Shown here one piece after another: positions 55,106-64,000 of a stretch of DNA of 64,000 nt (positions are counted from its first letter, which is position 1; each line of letters starts with the position of its first letter). Origin of the DNA: Pyrobaculum sp. 3827-6 (GTDB taxonomy: Archaea > Thermoproteota > Thermoprotei > Thermoproteales > Thermoproteaceae). The stretch covers positions 124,001-188,000 of the forward strand of contig NZ_JAOTQN010000004.1 in the NCBI RefSeq assembly GCF_025641885.1. Direction: 5' to 3'. The position numbers and the translations under genes are program-made. The notes under the pieces were generated by a model that was not told the origin of the DNA, ran no database searches, and worked only from the letters and a program-made list of their open reading frames with translations.

Positions 55106-55584
55106 TCAGCCAGAAGCCTCTTGCAACGCCGAGGCGGCCCTCTCCACGACGTCTCTAGCCCAGCCCGGCGCCTCGATGGCAGCTTTTCTAGCCCTCCTCC
55201 TAAGCAGATCGATCCAGGGGAGGACTTCAAGGCCGTGTTTTAAGGACGATATGACCAGAGCCTTCCTCCTGGCTCTGCTGATGGCTACGTTTAGCCGCGC
55301 GTAGTTAATCAAAGCGTCGTGTATCTCGTCGGCCACCATGGAGTATATCACCACTCCCTCCCCTGGAAGCTGTCCACGGTGGAAGCTCTGAGGTCCATGA
55401 GCTCCTCTAGATGCTCTAGATGCTCCACCTCCACCGACGCCATAGGCGATCCAATGCCGAAGTCCCTAAGCTTCTGTGATACGTCGCCTATCCTCAGGAT
55501 CCCGCGGGCCGCAAGCCACACCTCAACAATCCACGGGTACTTAACCCTCCCCTCCCTCTCCTCGCCATCCTCGATCACCTCCAC
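55106..55584 (-). pseudogene. Frameshifted remnant of an SF1 (Upf1-like) helicase
   Basis: Two overlapping frames together rebuild the end of an SF1 helicase. The first (55584 to about 55348) ends LRASTVDSFQGREW, matching motif V (VSTVDSFQGRE); the second (from about 55354) continues VVIYSMVADEIHDALINYAR, then LNVAISRARRKALVIS, matching motif VI. One missing G at about 55354, restoring ...GRE-VVIYS, would join them. The N-terminal RecA domain with Walker motifs is absent, so the gene is truncated and frameshifted. It lies on the same strand as, and 107 nt downstream of, the defence-like cluster; it was perhaps its last gene. Confidence 0.8.
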
Positions 55585-55690
55585 TCCTCAGCCACCTCCC
55601 AAACCGCCACAAAATACTGACAAAGCTCGGAATAATCCTCTTCAAGTATACCAAAACTTTGAACAACGTTAAGACCGGCTGAGTCAAGTC

Positions 55691-56017
55691 CTACCTAAGT
55701 GAGTATAGCTTTTTAAAAGCCGAAACAGCGATTAACCCCTTTCGTCTTATCATAAGCTTCCAATACACAGCTTCAAAGTCGTCAATCTCCTCTCTTAAAA
55801 CTTTAACAAGGCGATACTTGTCCTCCACGTAGGGGTATAATTTTGCGAAGACGTACGCCTTGGCCACCTGTGGAAGATTACTCCAGTCGTCCCTCAACTC
55901 AAGAGTTCCGCCAAAGAGCTCATACCACCACTTCACACCCTCTGCGCTAAACGATGCAAGCTTTGCACCCCTCTGCATCAACACAGCCCTGCGACCTACA
56001 ACTCTCAGCACTATCAT
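55691..56017 (-). CDS. Small protein of the methylase/ATPase cluster
   Basis: 108 residues from the ATG at 56017, whose ATGA overlaps the stop of the DUF499-type gene, so translation is coupled. The sequence has Trp/Tyr-rich central helices (VKWWYELFGGTLELRDDWSN, VAKAYVFAKLYPYVEDKYRL) and a basic end. Family not recognised. Because it is coupled to the ATPase gene, it is likely a subunit or accessory factor of the same system. Confidence 0.65.
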   Translation of the reverse strand: MIVLRVVGRRAVLMQRGAKLASFSAEGVKWWYELFGGTLELRDDWSNLPQVAKAYVFAKLYPYVEDKYRLVKVLREEIDDFEAVYWKLMIRRKGLIAVSAFKKLYSLR

Positions 56018-58752
56018 AAGCAACTCCTTACGTGTGCCAGTATCTTCACATCGTTGTAAATCTTAGCAAGATTCGCCACCGATTGTGTTATCTCTTTCTC
56101 CTTCACATCAACCTCTAGCGAAACGCTAGCCCTACCCCCCTCACTCCCTAAGGTGATTAGATACGACAGAAGCTTCTTCACTGCGGTGAGATCCTTGGCG
56201 CTCCATGTAGAAGTGATCCCCTCGTCGCTAAACTCCGCAGAGGCGCTGGCGTCTACCACCTCCACCCCCACGGTGGATAGTTGCTCTATCAACAACTTCA
56301 CCCTATAGACGTCGTCGCCACTTATGCTCAGGTGGAGCAGAGAGGAGCCTACAGCCTCGCCCAGCGGGACGATTTTCTCTACACACAAAGGTTGCGGCTT
56401 TGCTACCTCAACAACCTCAACGGGCTTGGCGGCCTTTTTTGCCATCTCGACAAGATCAACCACTTCTTTCGGAGGAGTCAGTAGGATGGACTGCGCATCT
56501 CTAGGATCACACTCAAGCATCTTTCTCACCTTCCTAACGATTTCCGAGTCTGGCAGACTCCTCAGCTCTTTCTCAGCTTGCGGCCAGTAATACGTGGTAC
56601 CGCAACTCAGCACAACTCTACCCTCCTCTGCGAGCCTCTTCAAAACACTATCTATCTCGTCTGGGCTGGTGATGGGGAGGTCGGGATCTCGGTATAAGTC
56701 TTCCTTTGCCTCAGATATAAGGACTCTACCAGCGTTTCTCAACCTAGGCTCTAGATAGGTCTGGAAGTAAAACTTGTCATTAAGCGACTCGACGAATTTT
56801 GCTATATCCTCCAGCGTCCTCTTTATCTGAGCTGATAAAAGCTCCCTAAGCTTAACAGCCGCCTTCTCCCCCCTCTCCAACGGCCCCCCTAGCTCCAGCT
56901 CAATCTTCTGGAACAAGACATCCCTCCCATATGGAATAGCAAGACAGTTAAACGATCTATAGAACGTGATGTAGAAGTCAAGAGCCTTCTTCTCACAGAG
57001 CGCCTCCAACCTCCTCAACTGGTCACCCTGGAACCTCTTCTTAAGCGACTCACATGCCACTAGGTACTTAGCCTGGTCAAGCGGGACCCCGCCGTGTAGA
57101 AGCACAACGAAACTGTTCCTATACTTCAGGCGGTCAGCCATACTCACAAGCTCCTCCAAACCTCGATTGCAGTCAACACCGGGGGACCTAGGCGACCATA
57201 TATAAAGCCGGAACGCCTTCTCGTCCTTAACCTCAGAAGGCGCCGTTAAGACGTCGATGTGGAATCTCCACCACTTGAGAGATCTCTTGAGGCGGTCCAC
57301 CTCCTCTGCCAGCACCTCAAAAGCCTCGTCGTCCGGCACAGCGTTCTTGCTCTCTTCAAGAACCTTGTTAATATTAGGCTCGGCTTGGAACCAGTACCTA
57401 TTCCCCTCAGTCTCCATGTACCACAGCCTCTCCAGCAACTCCTCCACCGCCTTGTCAACCGCTTTTGGATCTGTTAATTTCGGCTTGGCGGCTAGCGCCC
57501 TGATGTCGGCAAGAGTCGCACCTGCCTTCTTCACGTCGCCGCCAATGAGGGAATACACGTATAGCCCAGCCGCGGCGTAGTAATGCAACTCCCCAAGCCG
57601 CCGGGCCTCCGCCAAGTCGTGATCTATTATACCCGCATACGAAGGCCTCCCTACACCTACCGTAAAGAAGTCCTTAAACTCCCTATCCAGCAGATCCAGA
57701 TCTCCGGGCAAAATAAGGTCGCGGAACTCCTTGACGCCAGACAGCTTTCTATAAGCGGCAAGCGACAAGATGTATATCAAGTCACGAGTCCTCTGAAACT
57801 CCGGTATCGTCGACGTCCTCTCCCACAAAGTCCTAATAAAAGCTGGGTGAAACGGATAAGCCAGCCTCAGCTCATTAATGCCCACCCACCCGCTATTAAA
57901 CAACTCACCCCACTTCTTGTAGTAATTAGCGTATTCAGCAGCCGTGGCCTCGGCATCGGCCTCATCAACCCGTTTAAACAGCCGCCTCTTGATAATCTTA
58001 TAGACCTCCTCAACACTGGCAATAGGCACATGATCGGTTCCACCCCTTCTAAGCACCTCATACAAATCCGACAGCTTCTTCTTAACCCAATCAGAATAAG
58101 GCGCGGAATCATCAGGCATCGACACGACGAGAATATCGCGGTTTCCAAGAGCGTCAGTAAGCCTACGGAAGAAAAGCAGAGTAGCCGACGCCTCTTGATC
58201 CCTTTGCTGGGGTCTCCGCGTCTCTAAAAACCTGAAAAACTCACCCAGCTCGTCAACGATAATAACAACAGGCCCCTTGCCCTCAAGAGCCGACTTCAAC
58301 ACATCGGTCTCAGGCACCTCGCGGCCAAGACTCCGGTTGAGACAACGCTCTAGAAACAACCACGGCGGCCACAGATTCTCAGCAGACATATCCACCGCGC
58401 ACACCGAGGCCTCGGGGACACCATATCGGCTAATAAATCTCCCCACCTCTGTGTTTTCAATACGCCCTAGATCCACCCTGAACAGGTAATACACAGCGGC
58501 CAAGATATGCGTCTTACCCCCACCAAAGCCAGACTTCAAAATCAAAACCTTATCACCACCCCTCCCAGAAACCCTACCCAACACATTTGATAAAACCTTT
58601 TGTAAAGTCTCAGTCAAGTGGGTATATTCAAAGAACTTGACAGCGTCGTCGTACGGCGGCGGGGCGTTACCCCTCAAGATCCTCCACAGAGAAACAGCGA
58701 CGTCCTCCTTAGTAAAGCGCCCAGCTGCGATCTCCTCCCTCAACTCAATCAT
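56014..58752 (-). CDS. DUF499-type AAA+ ATPase
   Basis: 912 residues. Walker A SGFGGGKTH is at 74-82 and Walker B VVIIVDELGEF at about 162-172; the opening (KEDVAVSLWRILRGNAPPPY) and layout match the large archaeal/bacterial DUF499 ATPases (COG1483). Members of this family are found beside DUF1156 methylases and helicases in clusters thought to defend against foreign DNA. The role is probably to power recognition or translocation of DNA (inference). It overlaps the upstream methylase gene by 4 nt and the downstream small gene by 4 nt. Confidence 0.85.
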   Translation of the reverse strand: MIELREEIAAGRFTKEDVAVSLWRILRGNAPPPYDDAVKFFEYTHLTETLQKVLSNVLGRVSGRGGDKVLILKSGFGGGKTHILAAVYYLFRVDLGRIENTEVGRFISRYGVPEASVCAVDMSAENLWPPWLFLERCLNRSLGREVPETDVLKSALEGKGPVVIIVDELGEFFRFLETRRPQQRDQEASATLLFFRRLTDALGNRDILVVSMPDDSAPYSDWVKKKLSDLYEVLRRGGTDHVPIASVEEVYKIIKRRLFKRVDEADAEATAAEYANYYKKWGELFNSGWVGINELRLAYPFHPAFIRTLWERTSTIPEFQRTRDLIYILSLAAYRKLSGVKEFRDLILPGDLDLLDREFKDFFTVGVGRPSYAGIIDHDLAEARRLGELHYYAAAGLYVYSLIGGDVKKAGATLADIRALAAKPKLTDPKAVDKAVEELLERLWYMETEGNRYWFQAEPNINKVLEESKNAVPDDEAFEVLAEEVDRLKRSLKWWRFHIDVLTAPSEVKDEKAFRLYIWSPRSPGVDCNRGLEELVSMADRLKYRNSFVVLLHGGVPLDQAKYLVACESLKKRFQGDQLRRLEALCEKKALDFYITFYRSFNCLAIPYGRDVLFQKIELELGGPLERGEKAAVKLRELLSAQIKRTLEDIAKFVESLNDKFYFQTYLEPRLRNAGRVLISEAKEDLYRDPDLPITSPDEIDSVLKRLAEEGRVVLSCGTTYYWPQAEKELRSLPDSEIVRKVRKMLECDPRDAQSILLTPPKEVVDLVEMAKKAAKPVEVVEVAKPQPLCVEKIVPLGEAVGSSLLHLSISGDDVYRVKLLIEQLSTVGVEVVDASASAEFSDEGITSTWSAKDLTAVKKLLSYLITLGSEGGRASVSLEVDVKEKEITQSVANLAKIYNDVKILAHVRSCL

Positions 58753-61274
58753 ACAAACTCTAGAACACCCCTATCTTTAAAGACCGATCTACAAAACATA
58801 GCGGCGAAGTTATTGACAGTATTCTTGTCAACACCCCAGTTCTTGTACACAGCCTCAATAAACCTACACACATCCTGCATGGTAAACGGAAATCTCGCAT
58901 TCTGCAAGTAGCTGTTCACGGCTTGACTCCCACCACTCTTGAACTTGCACAGCATGGCGTGAACCACGTCGACGAGGGCATTGGGGAACTTACCAGCGAC
59001 ATTACACCTATCGGCAAAATCTACTAGTTCAAATACCTTCTTTTTGCCCTTTTTCCTTTCTCTTATTAGCCCTATTCTCTGCAACTCGGATCCTGAGACA
59101 AAGGTCTTGGAAAAGAGGTGGAGAGTGTCACTATCAAAACCTCCAGGGTAATTATTAACGGCGTATACGTAAAACGCCGTATACTTATCCGGCGTAGACC
59201 CGCCATATAAAAACTCCACAAGGGCTTTCGTCGCTATCTCGTCGGCAAAGGAGATTACGCTCTCCACCGGGTTCCCCCTAAGAGACTCCAGCTTACCCGC
59301 TTGGGTGGCGATTTTAAGCGCCACGCCGTAGGCCGCAATCGTAAGATCCACCCCCCTGTAGCCCTCCTCCCACAGCTCCCTTACCGTCTTTCTAATTTCG
59401 CTCTCCATCAATGGCTTCAGCTTCTCCACATAAGCCACAGACTCCTCCAAACGTGGCCTAGCCACGATGATAAGCGACGAAATAAACGAAGCCTTGCCCA
59501 CTGCTTGCACATCCGTCTCTGAATAAGACTTGATAGGGAAAACATTCACAACCCTGAAACCAGAATCTATCAAGGCCTCGAGTACAAAAACCCAAGCTTC
59601 TCTTTTAGAGTGGGCGTAATATAACACAAGTAGCCCGTCATCAGCTAATACTCTTCTAATCTCCTTGAATGCTAACTTTATAAGATACTTAAAATGCTCC
59701 TCAGATCTTCCGCCACCAACACTGATATCTTCAGCCGACCGATCACGCCAAAGAGTCCAGTAGGAAAATGCCTCGGGGTATATATCACCGACTACTCTTT
59801 TTAGTAATACATATATAAAATCATATGATTCAGGATATGGTATATTATCAAAGTAAGGAGGATCTGTAATAATGTATTTGATACTTTTATCACTGAATGG
59901 AAGATTTAAAGCGGAGCCTAAAATCGCTCTGAATTTTCCGGTATTGTTCGTTGCTTTGACCAAAAATGCTACACCTTCGATTATGTCATATAATGAGCTC
60001 CATATAGTACCTGCTCCTAAGGCAAAAGGATTAGTCTCAACATAGTCCCAAGCCATCCTCAAGACCTTATGAGACAGTGTATTACGTAAACCGACTTTGG
60101 AACTATCCCATGTGGTTAGTAGTGAATTTCGATCCGCTTGTTTAGCCACTAACCACGACATAATAGTTCTTATATCTTTATCATTAATATTTTTTATTTT
60201 TCTAATAAGTTGATTTATATAATAAAGCTGTCTTTTATTAAATAATTCACCAAAGGTTTTATAACCATAGATAGGTGGCACTACACTTCTAGGATCGTTT
60301 GGAGCTATTTGTTCATTAATCTTGTCCTCTACGTCTGGTACTGAGTTTACGATTTCCGAATCTATTGGTTTTGCTGGATAAAAAGATTTATCTTCAGTTA
60401 TTAATAGAACCAATTTATCATTATTTTTAATATTTTCTCTAATATATGAATTGCTTATTGATGCTTTACAACTTTCACGTGGACATTTTCCATCTCCCCC
60501 GCCAATAGTTGGTTCAACAAATTCCTCAGTAATCTCAGCTATATAATCACTATTCGTATATCTGGGTCTCCAGTAAATTTTTTTCTTAGAATCAAGACAA
60601 AAATCTAAAACCAAAGGTACCCAAGATCCGCATTTCGGGCATTTAACTTGTTTCGCCCATAAATAGTGGACAACTCTTTTTCCATTATATAATGGATAAT
60701 ATTTTTCTAATTCATTCTTTAATTCTTTAGCAATATTACATGCTTCTTTGACCAATAGCCCTGCCTTTTCTGCTAGAGGGTCGTTACATATCGCTTCCAT
60801 ATTCGCTCCAAAGCCTCTTCTATATCTCTTCGTTAGCTCTTCCCATATTTTTAGGTTGATGAGGTCATGTCTCTGCTGAATTATCTCGATGGTTTTTAGC
60901 GCTAGCCACTGTACGGGATTATAATCTAAAGCCACTGCATCTGCCCCCAGCCTTATGGCTTCGAGGGGGATGGAGCCCCCTCCGGCGAATGGGTCGAGGA
61001 TTTTGACACCTCTGAGTTTTTCTTTGATATCGTCTGGGGGATTTTTCTCAAAGCCTTCCTCTGGTAGGCCTAACGCCTTCTTTGCTAACTGGGGGTCTAG
61101 ATCCTCGAAGAATGCTGTGAGTAGTACGAACCTGGAGACTATTAGGGGGGCTCGTGCGAGGGAGATAGTCATTTCGAAGTAGGGGGATCTGGCGTTTTTC
61201 TCTTTAACTGCGAGTGCGTCTACTTGTCTCTTTATTTCTTTCCAGGGACCTGAGAAAGGCCTCTCAATTATCAT
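58749..61274 (-). CDS. DUF1156-type DNA methylase with Zn-ribbon (COG1743-like)
   Basis: 841 residues. SAM-binding motif I is ILDPFAGGGS at 92-101, and the catalytic DPPY is at 471-474 (ITDPPYFDNIPYPESYDFIY), as in adenine-N6 or cytosine-N4 methylases. Between them a 370-residue insertion carries CPKCGSW and CPRESC zinc-ribbon-type cysteines. This order fits the DUF1156 group, although the usual N-terminal LHLWWARRPLA-like segment is replaced by SPYFEMTISLARAPLIVSRF. The central gene segment (about 59.8-60.8 kb) is very AT-rich compared with neighbours, suggesting transfer. It overlaps the helicase gene by 11 nt. Modified base and target unknown. Confidence 0.85.
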   Translation of the reverse strand: MIIERPFSGPWKEIKRQVDALAVKEKNARSPYFEMTISLARAPLIVSRFVLLTAFFEDLDPQLAKKALGLPEEGFEKNPPDDIKEKLRGVKILDPFAGGGSIPLEAIRLGADAVALDYNPVQWLALKTIEIIQQRHDLINLKIWEELTKRYRRGFGANMEAICNDPLAEKAGLLVKEACNIAKELKNELEKYYPLYNGKRVVHYLWAKQVKCPKCGSWVPLVLDFCLDSKKKIYWRPRYTNSDYIAEITEEFVEPTIGGGDGKCPRESCKASISNSYIRENIKNNDKLVLLITEDKSFYPAKPIDSEIVNSVPDVEDKINEQIAPNDPRSVVPPIYGYKTFGELFNKRQLYYINQLIRKIKNINDKDIRTIMSWLVAKQADRNSLLTTWDSSKVGLRNTLSHKVLRMAWDYVETNPFALGAGTIWSSLYDIIEGVAFLVKATNNTGKFRAILGSALNLPFSDKSIKYIITDPPYFDNIPYPESYDFIYVLLKRVVGDIYPEAFSYWTLWRDRSAEDISVGGGRSEEHFKYLIKLAFKEIRRVLADDGLLVLYYAHSKREAWVFVLEALIDSGFRVVNVFPIKSYSETDVQAVGKASFISSLIIVARPRLEESVAYVEKLKPLMESEIRKTVRELWEEGYRGVDLTIAAYGVALKIATQAGKLESLRGNPVESVISFADEIATKALVEFLYGGSTPDKYTAFYVYAVNNYPGGFDSDTLHLFSKTFVSGSELQRIGLIRERKKGKKKVFELVDFADRCNVAGKFPNALVDVVHAMLCKFKSGGSQAVNSYLQNARFPFTMQDVCRFIEAVYKNWGVDKNTVNNFAAMFCRSVFKDRGVLEFV

Positions 61275-64000
61275 ATGGTAGCTCTACTGTTGGTGTTATT
61301 AGTTTGGTGAATTCGTCGTAGGGTATTACGTATTTCTCTTGTGTTACTTTGTATTTATGTACGTGGTTTGCCAAGTGGGTACAGGGATCGCGGTATTTTT
61401 TCACTGTGTTGTTGCTTAGGTCTACCACGTATAGGTACATGTGGTTTTTAAGCGCCTTTGTGTACTGTAGATCTACGAGTAGGGCGGCGCGGCGGGCGCG
61501 GTTTGTCTTGCTGGCGCACAGTGCGGCCCACTCTCCTGGCTGAATGTGGATTTTGCTGTCTGGGCCTTTTACCGTCTTTACCTCCACCAGTCTGACTCCG
61601 TCGGGGCATACAGCTATGTAGTCGACACCTGTCATTGGTATGTGTCTCAGATCAACTATGTGGCACCCCTCTTTTCTATCTAGTTCCATGGCTATTTCTT
61701 CGCCTTTGGCGCCTTGTTCCATCAAGTCGCTTCCCCACTCGACTCCTAGCGTGAGGTAGCCTAGTGGCTTGTACATGGCTGTGAATAAGGTTGCCGTCTC
61801 TATCTTGGCATTGCCGCACGCTTCTCTCAGCATGTTAATTGTTGCTTCTAGTCTCTGTAGGAGCTCTTCTTTTTGTCTGGCTTTTTGGGCTTCTGTTAGG
61901 CCCTTTTTCTTGTCTATTGCTTTTAGCATGGAGGTGTATTCGGCGAGTATGGCGTTTTCCTTGTTTTGACAGAGTTTTTTGACTTGCTCCTGTAGTTTGG
62001 CCTTTACCTCGCTTAGTGCCTCTTCGGGTGGCTGTGGGCTTTGTTTTGACTCCTGTATGTATATGGGGAGGGTAATCGCAGAGAGTGGGACTTGGCCTTT
62101 TTGGCACTGGGTGGTGTTGGGCTGGTAGTAGGCGGCTAGGTGGCTTAGTGTGTACTTTTCTAAGCGGTGTCCTTCGGGAATAGCAACCTCCGCTGTGCCT
62201 TTTATGACCCAGAGGTTGCCGTCTGCGTAGCACGGCTTGTCTACCTCTGCCAATATGGAGTTGGGAAGTTTTTCTAGGTGGTACTGAATTACTGCCTTGG
62301 CGAGGGGGTGTTCTACAGTTATCCTCTCGGGGCAGTTTGACGAGAGGCCGAAGCCGACTAGGCCTGTGCACGCCCCGCGGCAGAGACTGGCTAGTTCTTT
62401 TGGTAGGTATTTTATTCTGTAGCAACCACCTGCCTCGTCATATGATCTGGAGTCGAGGGTGTTTAGCGTGCCGAGTACCAGGGTTTGGAGTTCCTCATCC
62501 GTGACGTAGTCTATACATCTAGGATCTTTTTGGAGTCTGACTCGGTCTTTTACCAGCAGGTCCTCTAGATCTTTAAGGGTGGCTTTTGACTGCGCGAGGC
62601 GTTCTACTTCTTCTGAGGGGTCTCGGCCTTTTAGCGCTGCGTCGATTAGCTTGGCGAAGTCTCTCTCGTCGGCGAGGTTTCCTAGGTATTCAAACACTCT
62701 GCCAAGCGCTTTTCTTATCTCCTCTAACTTCTTGAGGAGGAGTTCGTAGACGCGTCCGTCTATGGTGCCGTCGAGTAGGAAGTTGTAGACTAAGACGGGC
62801 CTCCTCTGGCCGTATCTGTGCACTCTGCCGATTCTCTGGTCTATGCGTGTGGGGTTCCACGGGAGGTCGTAGTTGATTAGGAGGTTTGCGACTTGGAGGT
62901 TGAGGCCTTCTGAGGCTGCGTCTGTTGCCACTAGGATCTGGCCTTTGTCTCTGAACTCGGCCTCGGCGGCTTTGCGCTCCTCGTCGGACATGCCTCCGTG
63001 GAGGAGAACTACGTGGTAGCCGTCTTTCCTTAGCCTCTCCGCGAGATAGTGCATTGTGTCTCTGTACTGGGTGAAGACGATTATCTTTTCTGAGACCTTT
63101 CCCAAGACCTCTCCTAGAACCTTTTTCAATGTGTTATACTTGGTGTCAGTGGCGAGGGCTTGGCCAAGCTGGTGTAATCTCCTTAGCATTTCAATCTCCT
63201 TGTCCAGCTGGGTCTCGTCGACTACGCGTTGTATAGCCTCAAGCTCGCTTCTCGGGGTCGTTTTAGTTGGCTTGAGCAGGCCCCTCTTTATGGCTTCTAA
63301 GGCTTTTAGTCTTCTCTCGATGGTCCTCACAGCGGCGTATGTGCTTGAAGACGCTCTCTTTAGGAATACCGTAGCCACGAGGCCTATGGCCGCCCTTCGC
63401 TTTCCCTTGTACTTCTGGGCTATTCCGTAGTAGTACCGGGCGTACTTCTCGACCTCTTCGTAGAACTGCGCCTCGTCAGGTGAGGGGGCTATTTTCAACG
63501 TTGTGGAGTGTCTCTCTGGTATGCCGGTTTCGTCGCGGACGTCCTCTCTTAGTCTCCTAACTACGTACCTCTTTACGGCAAGTCTAAGAGAGTCGTCGTC
63601 TGTAACTGAGCGGTCTATGAGCCTTATCCGTGCCATGAAGTCTAGCCTATCTCCGTGGTGTGGAGTGGCCGAGAGGAGCAGGACGTTTTTCGTAGCAGAG
63701 GCCAGCCTCTCGGCGGCTTGGTACCTCTTGGTGGGTTCGCGGCCCCTAGCGGTTAGGTTATGTGCCTCGTCAAATACCACGAAGTCCCACCCTTGTTGAA
63801 GAAAGTCATCTACCCTCCTCTTCAGGAAATCTATGGAGACGATGCCGCAGTTGGTATCGCAACGCTCTCTGCAGACTTGGCACTCTATGTCGAATTTCTC
63901 TGCCAGTTCTCTCATCCACTGGAAAACCAGCATCTTCGGCACGACGAGTAGCACCTTCTTTACGTGGCCTCTCATCATTAGCTCTTTTATCAAGAGGCCG
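61264..64000 (-). CDS. SNF2-family helicase with C-terminal nuclease-like domain, 5' end outside window
   Basis: At least 911 residues, with no stop before the window edge; the frame at the edge reads GLLIKELMMRGHVKK, the motif Ia region, so Walker A lies to the right. Present are DEAH (FVVFDEAHNL), LLSATPHHGD, VTDAASEGLNLQ-type motif V (ILVATDAASEGLNLQVANLL) and motif VI DQRIGRVHRYGQ: RapA/HepA-like SNF2 ATPase. The C-terminal region contains GVDYIAVCPDGVRLVEVKTV, a D-x-E-x-K pattern like DUF3883 nuclease domains, within about 100 residues of the end. A helical region with paired cysteines lies between. Probably a DNA translocase/nuclease working with the methylase and DUF499 ATPase. Confidence 0.87.
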   Translation of the reverse strand, partial: GLLIKELMMRGHVKKVLLVVPKMLVFQWMRELAEKFDIECQVCRERCDTNCGIVSIDFLKRRVDDFLQQGWDFVVFDEAHNLTARGREPTKRYQAAERLASATKNVLLLSATPHHGDRLDFMARIRLIDRSVTDDDSLRLAVKRYVVRRLREDVRDETGIPERHSTTLKIAPSPDEAQFYEEVEKYARYYYGIAQKYKGKRRAAIGLVATVFLKRASSSTYAAVRTIERRLKALEAIKRGLLKPTKTTPRSELEAIQRVVDETQLDKEIEMLRRLHQLGQALATDTKYNTLKKVLGEVLGKVSEKIIVFTQYRDTMHYLAERLRKDGYHVVLLHGGMSDEERKAAEAEFRDKGQILVATDAASEGLNLQVANLLINYDLPWNPTRIDQRIGRVHRYGQRRPVLVYNFLLDGTIDGRVYELLLKKLEEIRKALGRVFEYLGNLADERDFAKLIDAALKGRDPSEEVERLAQSKATLKDLEDLLVKDRVRLQKDPRCIDYVTDEELQTLVLGTLNTLDSRSYDEAGGCYRIKYLPKELASLCRGACTGLVGFGLSSNCPERITVEHPLAKAVIQYHLEKLPNSILAEVDKPCYADGNLWVIKGTAEVAIPEGHRLEKYTLSHLAAYYQPNTTQCQKGQVPLSAITLPIYIQESKQSPQPPEEALSEVKAKLQEQVKKLCQNKENAILAEYTSMLKAIDKKKGLTEAQKARQKEELLQRLEATINMLREACGNAKIETATLFTAMYKPLGYLTLGVEWGSDLMEQGAKGEEIAMELDRKEGCHIVDLRHIPMTGVDYIAVCPDGVRLVEVKTVKGPDSKIHIQPGEWAALCASKTNRARRAALLVDLQYTKALKNHMYLYVVDLSNNTVKKYRDPCTHLANHVHKYKVTQEKYVIPYDEFTKLITPTVELPYDN

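Follow-up and report, generated by a model that had tools for sequence, protein, structure and literature searches.

Operons built around a DUF499-type ATPase are known from three papers. A COG1743-DUF499-SWI2/SNF2-nuclease operon, also named with EVE as a further part, was described from archaea in 2020 (PMC7641849), Hma was introduced as a three-gene PADLOC system by Payne et al. in 2021 (PMC8565338), and the Type-1 DUF499-centred BREX-related (BR) system followed in 2026, in a study that reported DUF499-centred systems from 3,592 taxa (PMC12839542). PMC12839542 cites an experimental study reporting anti-phage activity of the HmaA helicase in another host. In this work an operon of this kind was analysed in a 64,000-nucleotide stretch of the Pyrobaculum sp. 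3827-6 genome (C4:124001-188000 in a 2.3-Mb, 13-contig genome), hereafter called the window. Besides hmaA, hmaB and hmaC, it encodes a small protein, which we refer to as D. The cluster is very probably an Hma system, that is, a DUF499-centred BREX-related (Type-1 BR) defence operon similar to restriction-modification (RM) systems, with an extra conserved small subunit. The trio of large genes is already known; the conserved D component is new with respect to the literature searched.

The first-pass annotation of this DNA had proposed four overlapping minus-strand genes, and the four open reading frames (ORFs) were all found, tightly packed and without an internal stop in any of them. The order of transcription is hmaA-hmaB-hmaC-D, with overlaps of 11 bases (A/B), 4 bases (B/C) and 4 bases (C/D, counted from the ATG start of D). 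The hmaA gene extends 269 bases beyond the window end, and the complete ORF (L007:7265-10270) encodes 1001 amino acids. D has 108 amino acids from the ATG and 110 if started at an upstream TTG. Direct reading of the sequence shows that the ATG of D overlaps the hmaC stop codon (ATGA).

61264-64269 (61264..64000 within the window), minus strand: hmaA, SNF2 helicase with a predicted C-terminal PD-(D/E)xK (NERD-like) nuclease (PADLOC HmaA, Pfam).
61516..61713, minus strand: NERD-like nuclease segment of HmaA, motif DYIAVCPDGVRLVEVK (Pfam NERD, residues 763-828 of the window frame).
58749..61274, minus strand: hmaB, DUF1156/COG1743-type DNA methylase, 841 amino acids (PADLOC HmaB, NCBIfam DUF1156_antiphage, motif columns).
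~60972-60995, minus strand: hmaB motif I, DPFAGGGS (alignment).
~59853-59864, minus strand: hmaB motif IV, DPPY (alignment); CPKCG zinc motifs lie between motifs I and IV.
59835..60794, minus strand: hmaB variable segment, residues 161-480, presumed target-recognition insert (sister-genome comparison).
56014..58752, minus strand: hmaC, DUF499 AAA+ (ORC/Cdc6-like) ATPase, 912 amino acids (PADLOC HmaC, Pfam DUF499).
56024-56029 (feature 56015..56029), minus strand: AAGGAG, six bases ahead of the ATG of D at 56015-56017 (direct reading).
55691..56017, minus strand: small fourth gene D, directly 3' of hmaC, a distant relative of Pfam DUF7680 (profile retrieval, profile-profile comparison, AlphaFold2 model).

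When the full 1001-residue HmaA was compared with PADLOC, the best of 62 families was PDLC00659 (E = 1.6e-94). In the ORF as cut by the window end, Pfam recognized Helicase_C (9e-30), SNF2-rel_dom (5.6e-13) and NERD (1.9e-4), the last one barely above the cut-off (22.3 vs 22.1 bits). The predicted PD-(D/E)xK nuclease bears a D..EVK motif; an HKD domain was not among the Pfam matches. These matches agree with the SNF2 helicase with nuclease-like C-terminus named in the first-pass annotation. Alignment to relatives begins around residue 19-26 of HmaA as opposed to about 50-84 in most relatives (some 30-60 residues later there), and a Pfam scan of the ORF ending at the window edge gave no TUDOR match; judged from the sequence, the N-terminal TUDOR domain looks shortened or missing. 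HmaB was matched by PDLC00661 (E = 3.4e-54) and by Pfam N6_N4_Mtase. Its earlier assignment to the DUF1156 type holds in so far as the NCBIfam DUF1156_antiphage model was hit with E = 1.6e-39, a match far under the cut-off of that model. The motifs DPFAGGGS and DPPY and the cysteine pairs were conserved across nine aligned sequences. HmaC, correctly predicted as a DUF499-type ATPase, was matched by PDLC00662 (E = 4e-58) and Pfam DUF499 (1.4e-29), and carries the Walker A motif GFGGGKTH and the Walker B motif VDELGEF, in which G77, G78, G79, K80, D167 and E168 were invariant in 14 homologues. The adjacency of the three genes that characterizes Hma was also found, hmaA, hmaB and hmaC lying in one operon. 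A scan of the genome contigs with the single HmaC protein gave no match; the HmaC alignment had no conserved stretch usable for scanning, and the HmaB alignment served instead. To the right of the window, where the first-pass annotation had advised looking, hmaA was completed, and HsdS, DrmA/B/C and PglZ were not seen among the ORFs of about 9 kb.

In the Pfam and PADLOC searches, which had likewise been suggested for all four proteins, the large ones proved to be a named system, and D had no Pfam match at E<=1 (DUF3780 and EVE included) and no useful NCBIfam or PADLOC match. Searched as a single sequence against 398 genomes of the phylum, D gave a clear match in one sister genome only, in which D is 97% conserved, and three more at E = 0.008 (one distant genus); D was carried by 2 of the 19 searched genomes of its family. 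At distant hmaC loci a small ORF recurs directly 3' of hmaC, mostly overlapping it. The D proteins share a C-terminal pattern consisting of an acidic residue, an aromatic-W pair and a basic/aromatic tail.

In a leave-one-out test, a profile built from the D proteins of other groups was searched against 6,330 ORFs of 101 loci. Window D ranked just after the trained members (E = 0.008), all better matches were hmaC neighbours, and the first unrelated ORF not neighbouring hmaC appeared at E = 3.9. The sister copy was found at E = 4e-5 with the Sulfolobales-like group left out of training, and every other core group, when omitted, was recovered at E values between 8e-4 and 6e-20. A six-frame profile search of the 398 whole genomes detected D in 27 genomes from 22 genera, roughly half of which had not contributed to training; comparison with an independent hmaC search placed most of the new matches just 3' of hmaC. 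Of 54 Thermoproteota hmaC loci whose 3' end could be read, 36 had D, 8 had an unassigned small ORF in the slot and 10 had none. Small ORFs unmatched by any D profile occupy the slot at L065:6633-7007, L066:12826-13242, L208, L209 and L213-L215; they may be further divergent members or replacements.

The relationship extends to bacteria. In plasmid systems of haloarchaea, cyanobacteria, Aminobacter and Rhodococcus, a protein annotated as hypothetical is encoded between the DUF499 and DUF1156 genes, so that the DUF499-D-DUF1156 arrangement spans haloarchaea, cyanobacteria, actinobacteria and proteobacteria. As some of these plasmids were picked through D, they show breadth, not frequency. Pfam DUF7680 matched 14 of 28 D-slot proteins (best E = 1e-47), the haloarchaeal and rhizobial members far over the cut-off, and when 249 Pseudomonadota genomes were searched blind with DUF7680, two matches appeared, both in C-D-B operons. 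Window D itself is below the DUF7680 gathering score and is tied to the family via intermediate members and profile-profile comparison. In the latter, the DUF7680-like set matched two Thermoproteota D groups with E values of 2e-8 and 5e-7, and the Thermoproteota groups matched each other with 7e-12; none of 60 shuffles of either kind reached the scores of the D groups. Taken together, these comparisons indicate that D is one conserved family, encoded directly behind the DUF499 ATPase gene in archaea and bacteria. No paper mentioning DUF7680 was found in the searched literature, and the main text of PMC12839542 mentions no small protein or hypothetical component; supplementary files were outside both searches, subscription papers outside the former.

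The presence of D depends on gene order. It was found in 19 of 27 B-C-D-A loci and in all seven C-D-B-A loci. D is widespread, not universal, and dispensable in part of the family, and the A-B-C-D arrangement of the window is unusual. In Type-2 BR loci the D slot is held by DUF3780, which was not found in 20 bacterial genomes with HmaB relatives and was reached via plasmids. In one Geoglobus locus the slot contains an EVE-domain protein (L144:14386-14871, E = 4e-26), whose gene overlaps hmaC by 28 bases. EVE and DUF3780 have been linked to the reading of modified bases (PMC12839542, PMC7641849), and in some cases DUF3780 occurs as a fusion with a RAMA or ASCH reader domain (PMC12839542). A single D match among 8,498 ORFs was not beside hmaC: at L216:976-3812 (G062, contig C75) a D/DUF7680 relative (E = 1e-13) immediately follows a short PglZ-like tail and a gene for BrxL (E = 1.6e-109), and DUF499 is absent. 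In this case D may also serve a BREX locus.

AlphaFold2 models were made from four sequences; that of window D had a pLDDT of 80 and a pTM of 0.74, and that of a D relative from a WOR-3 bacterium had values of 90 and 0.85. Both consist of three strands, a helix and then four more helices. When the two models were searched against the PDB, and one of them against viral structures, nothing was found with E below 0.04, therefore no function was taken from the fold. An identity of D as iSTAND was rejected, the predicted topology not being P-loop alpha/beta/alpha. An origin of D as an RRM tail split off from HmaC was set aside by reading alone, as HmaC retains a C-terminal region of that look. A Cmr5 small-subunit match in one D relative (E = 0.022) was taken as chance.

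That D should be a chance ORF or a passenger gene without part in the system is very improbable. It has no family match of its own, is missing from most A-B-C loci and occurs in few genomes of its family, as such an ORF might, but against this stand the ATGA overlap with the AAGGAG site ahead of it, the conservation in the sister genome, the blind retrieval of D genes adjoining hmaC, the profile links across domains of life that no shuffle equalled, and the predicted fold common to window D and its relative. It is improbable, too, that the operon represents a genuinely undescribed kind of defence system, as the first-pass annotation had it. The position of D at the 3' end, an unusual gene order, and its absence from any published description found would fit this idea; for the trio, however, it is refuted, because the Hma models give the best match to each of A, B and C and the same trio is present in all three papers. 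The restriction-like defence cluster seen in the first pass therefore stands, and its novelty does not. Of the two parts that could not be matched then, the SNF2-nuclease pairing is standard in Type-1 BR/Hma helicases, and the small protein is indeed absent from the published descriptions searched.

The similarity of D to DUF3780 is harder to judge. If D were a compact form of DUF3780, Type-1 and Type-2 BR would have small subunits of one divergent family, and DUF499 systems with such a gene 3' of the ATPase would share a four-part core, a possibility whose chances we put not far below even. The two occupy the same slot directly 3' of DUF499, the secondary structures are akin (the published layout of DUF3780 has four strands and five helices, PMC12839542, a sheet followed by five helices in both cases), and hhalign gave a weak collinear alignment over 99 columns (score 23.3) that 0 of 200 shuffles reached. 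On the other hand, the hhalign probability was 4.7%, the score was reached by 2 of 97 and 3 of 99 block shuffles once the D profiles were enlarged, and PMC12839542 reports no definitive DUF3780 homologues. A Type-3 BR or BREX system with D as its iSTAND/BrxF component is extremely improbable: the Type-3 core also includes a small protein, and in another archaeon a D relative follows BrxL and a PglZ-like tail (see above), but no PglZ was seen in the ORFs scanned to the right of the window, the window helicase keeps the nuclease that is lacking in Type-3, and the D model is of three strands and five helices. Several points weigh against the preferred assignment as an Hma system with a conserved fourth subunit. 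D occurs in only 2 of 30 loci of the A-B-C order, which is the classic Hma order, and these two are the window and its sister. Apart from the sister copy, its identity to other members is only 9-23%, and membership rests on profiles and position. The modification made by hmaB is given as m5C in PMC8565338 and as N6A in PMC12839542. Finally, the biochemistry of the operon, including defence, restriction and methylation, is deduced from family knowledge.

The operon recurs in the sister genome (G003), where its surroundings are also the same. DNA identity is 92-99% over most of hmaA, hmaC and D and 57-70% in the middle of hmaB. The HmaB proteins are 50-72% identical at residues 161-480 and 75-100% elsewhere, with about 97% in neighbouring genes. 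By analogy with other RM-like systems, this divergence suggests that the target-recognition part has been exchanged or has changed rapidly, and target specificity probably resides in the methylase; because the divergence is concentrated in hmaB, A, C and D would not themselves set the site. The hmaB gene of G003 (L047:9819-12343) is interrupted, giving frames of 304 and 485 amino acids, and hmaA, hmaC and D stay open; either the break is real, and would be tolerable only if restriction needs HmaB, or it is an assembly error. At L191, L192 and L199, an intact operon is accompanied by additional, partly broken hmaB-type methylase copies, which may be a reservoir of specificities.

These observations and family knowledge are consistent with the following scheme. 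HmaB would methylate adenines of host DNA at sites that its inserted target-recognition region selects, and the ORC-like ATPase HmaC would load or scaffold the complex on DNA. On unmodified or wrongly modified DNA the SNF2 motor of HmaA would translocate and its C-terminal PD-(D/E)xK nuclease would cut. D, which would be translated right after HmaC from their shared message, is most likely a stable subunit docked on HmaC or between HmaC and HmaB. There it might, with lesser support than the other steps, relay or read the modification state, as an ATPase adaptor or a modification reader; it is probably not the sequence-specificity subunit. In favour of a reader role, EVE or DUF3780 occupies the slot at other loci; against it, the fold of D matches no reader structure. 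More generally, DUF499 systems of the C-D-B-A and B-C-D-A kind might have a four-part core, in which DUF7680-like proteins, DUF3780 and the occasional EVE would be interchangeable, partly homologous small readers signalling the mark of the methylase to the ATPase independently of the recognized site. This generalization is tentative and somewhat less likely than not. Three-gene reconstitutions from D-bearing hosts may lack a part, and annotation pipelines label D 'hypothetical'. With its 108 residues D makes the reader step testable, and the divergence of the sister-genome methylase offers a ready test of specificity in HmaB alone.

Several features were noted around this and related operons. 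On the other side of D lies what the first-pass annotation had called a decayed SF1 helicase.

55106..55354, minus strand: possible SF1 (AAA_12/MkoA-like) helicase remnant adjoining the operon (Pfam AAA_12 E = 0.004, PADLOC MkoA E = 5e-4).

The likeness was seen again as a weak match of 40 residues; membership in the system is not established by these matches. To the right of the window, L007:11878-16017 encodes a 1379-residue P-loop NTPase with TPR-like repeats, STAND/NB-ARC-like (AAA_22 4e-6, NB-ARC 2e-4), beside a 373-residue protein; it is possibly another defence gene. In G016, a genome of the same family, a region with an hmaC fossil of about 90 bp (L048:9791-9881, 70% over 46 amino acids) holds a 1363-residue gene that is 68% identical to this NTPase gene. 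In about 17 Thermoproteota B-C-A loci (L186, L187, L190-L193, L196-L199, L202, L203, L205, L210, L214, L217, L060) the gene after hmaA, in many cases with an overlap, encodes a protein of about 425 residues that is absent from the window; the five scanned have a metallo-beta-lactamase fold with RMMBL, and the protein was not found in the main text of PMC12839542.

Compared with type I RM, DISARM and canonical BREX, from which the first-pass annotation had rightly separated the cluster, the sets HsdS+HsdR, DrmABC and PglZ+BrxC+PglX were not found in the scanned proteins and the 9 kb to the right. Type-3 BR has PglZ in its locus and a helicase without nuclease, whereas the window operon has the nuclease fusion and no PglZ in the ORFs right of the window. 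As in Type-2 BR, the gene immediately 3' of that for the DUF499 ATPase encodes a small alpha+beta protein (DUF3780 there, D here), but the Type-2 helicase carries an N-terminal HKD nuclease, and homology between D and DUF3780 is not established. The COG1743-DUF499-SWI2/SNF2-nuclease-EVE system (PMC7641849), known from archaea, has the same trio; it differs in that no EVE gene was recognized beside the window operon and D is not EVE by Pfam. DUF7680 (PF24728) is the family name that fits the better-conserved D proteins, although window D is too divergent to match the model unaided. The operon has in common with Hma the helicase, methylase and DUF499 ATPase in a single operon, each with its top match to HmaA, HmaB or HmaC. 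The published system has three genes, whereas the window has a fourth, overlapping gene 3' of hmaC, and neither D nor its haloarchaeal relative was matched by a model of PADLOC 2.0.0. Type-1 BR likewise has the DUF499 ATPase, a DUF1156-like methylase with an inserted cysteine-containing region and an SNF2 helicase with a C-terminal PD-(D/E)xK nuclease. Its helicase has an N-terminal TUDOR domain, which seems shortened in window HmaA, and its core is described as ATPase, methylase and helicase only, to which the window locus adds the conserved D. D extends the published description of Type-1 BR and does not thereby exclude the locus from it.

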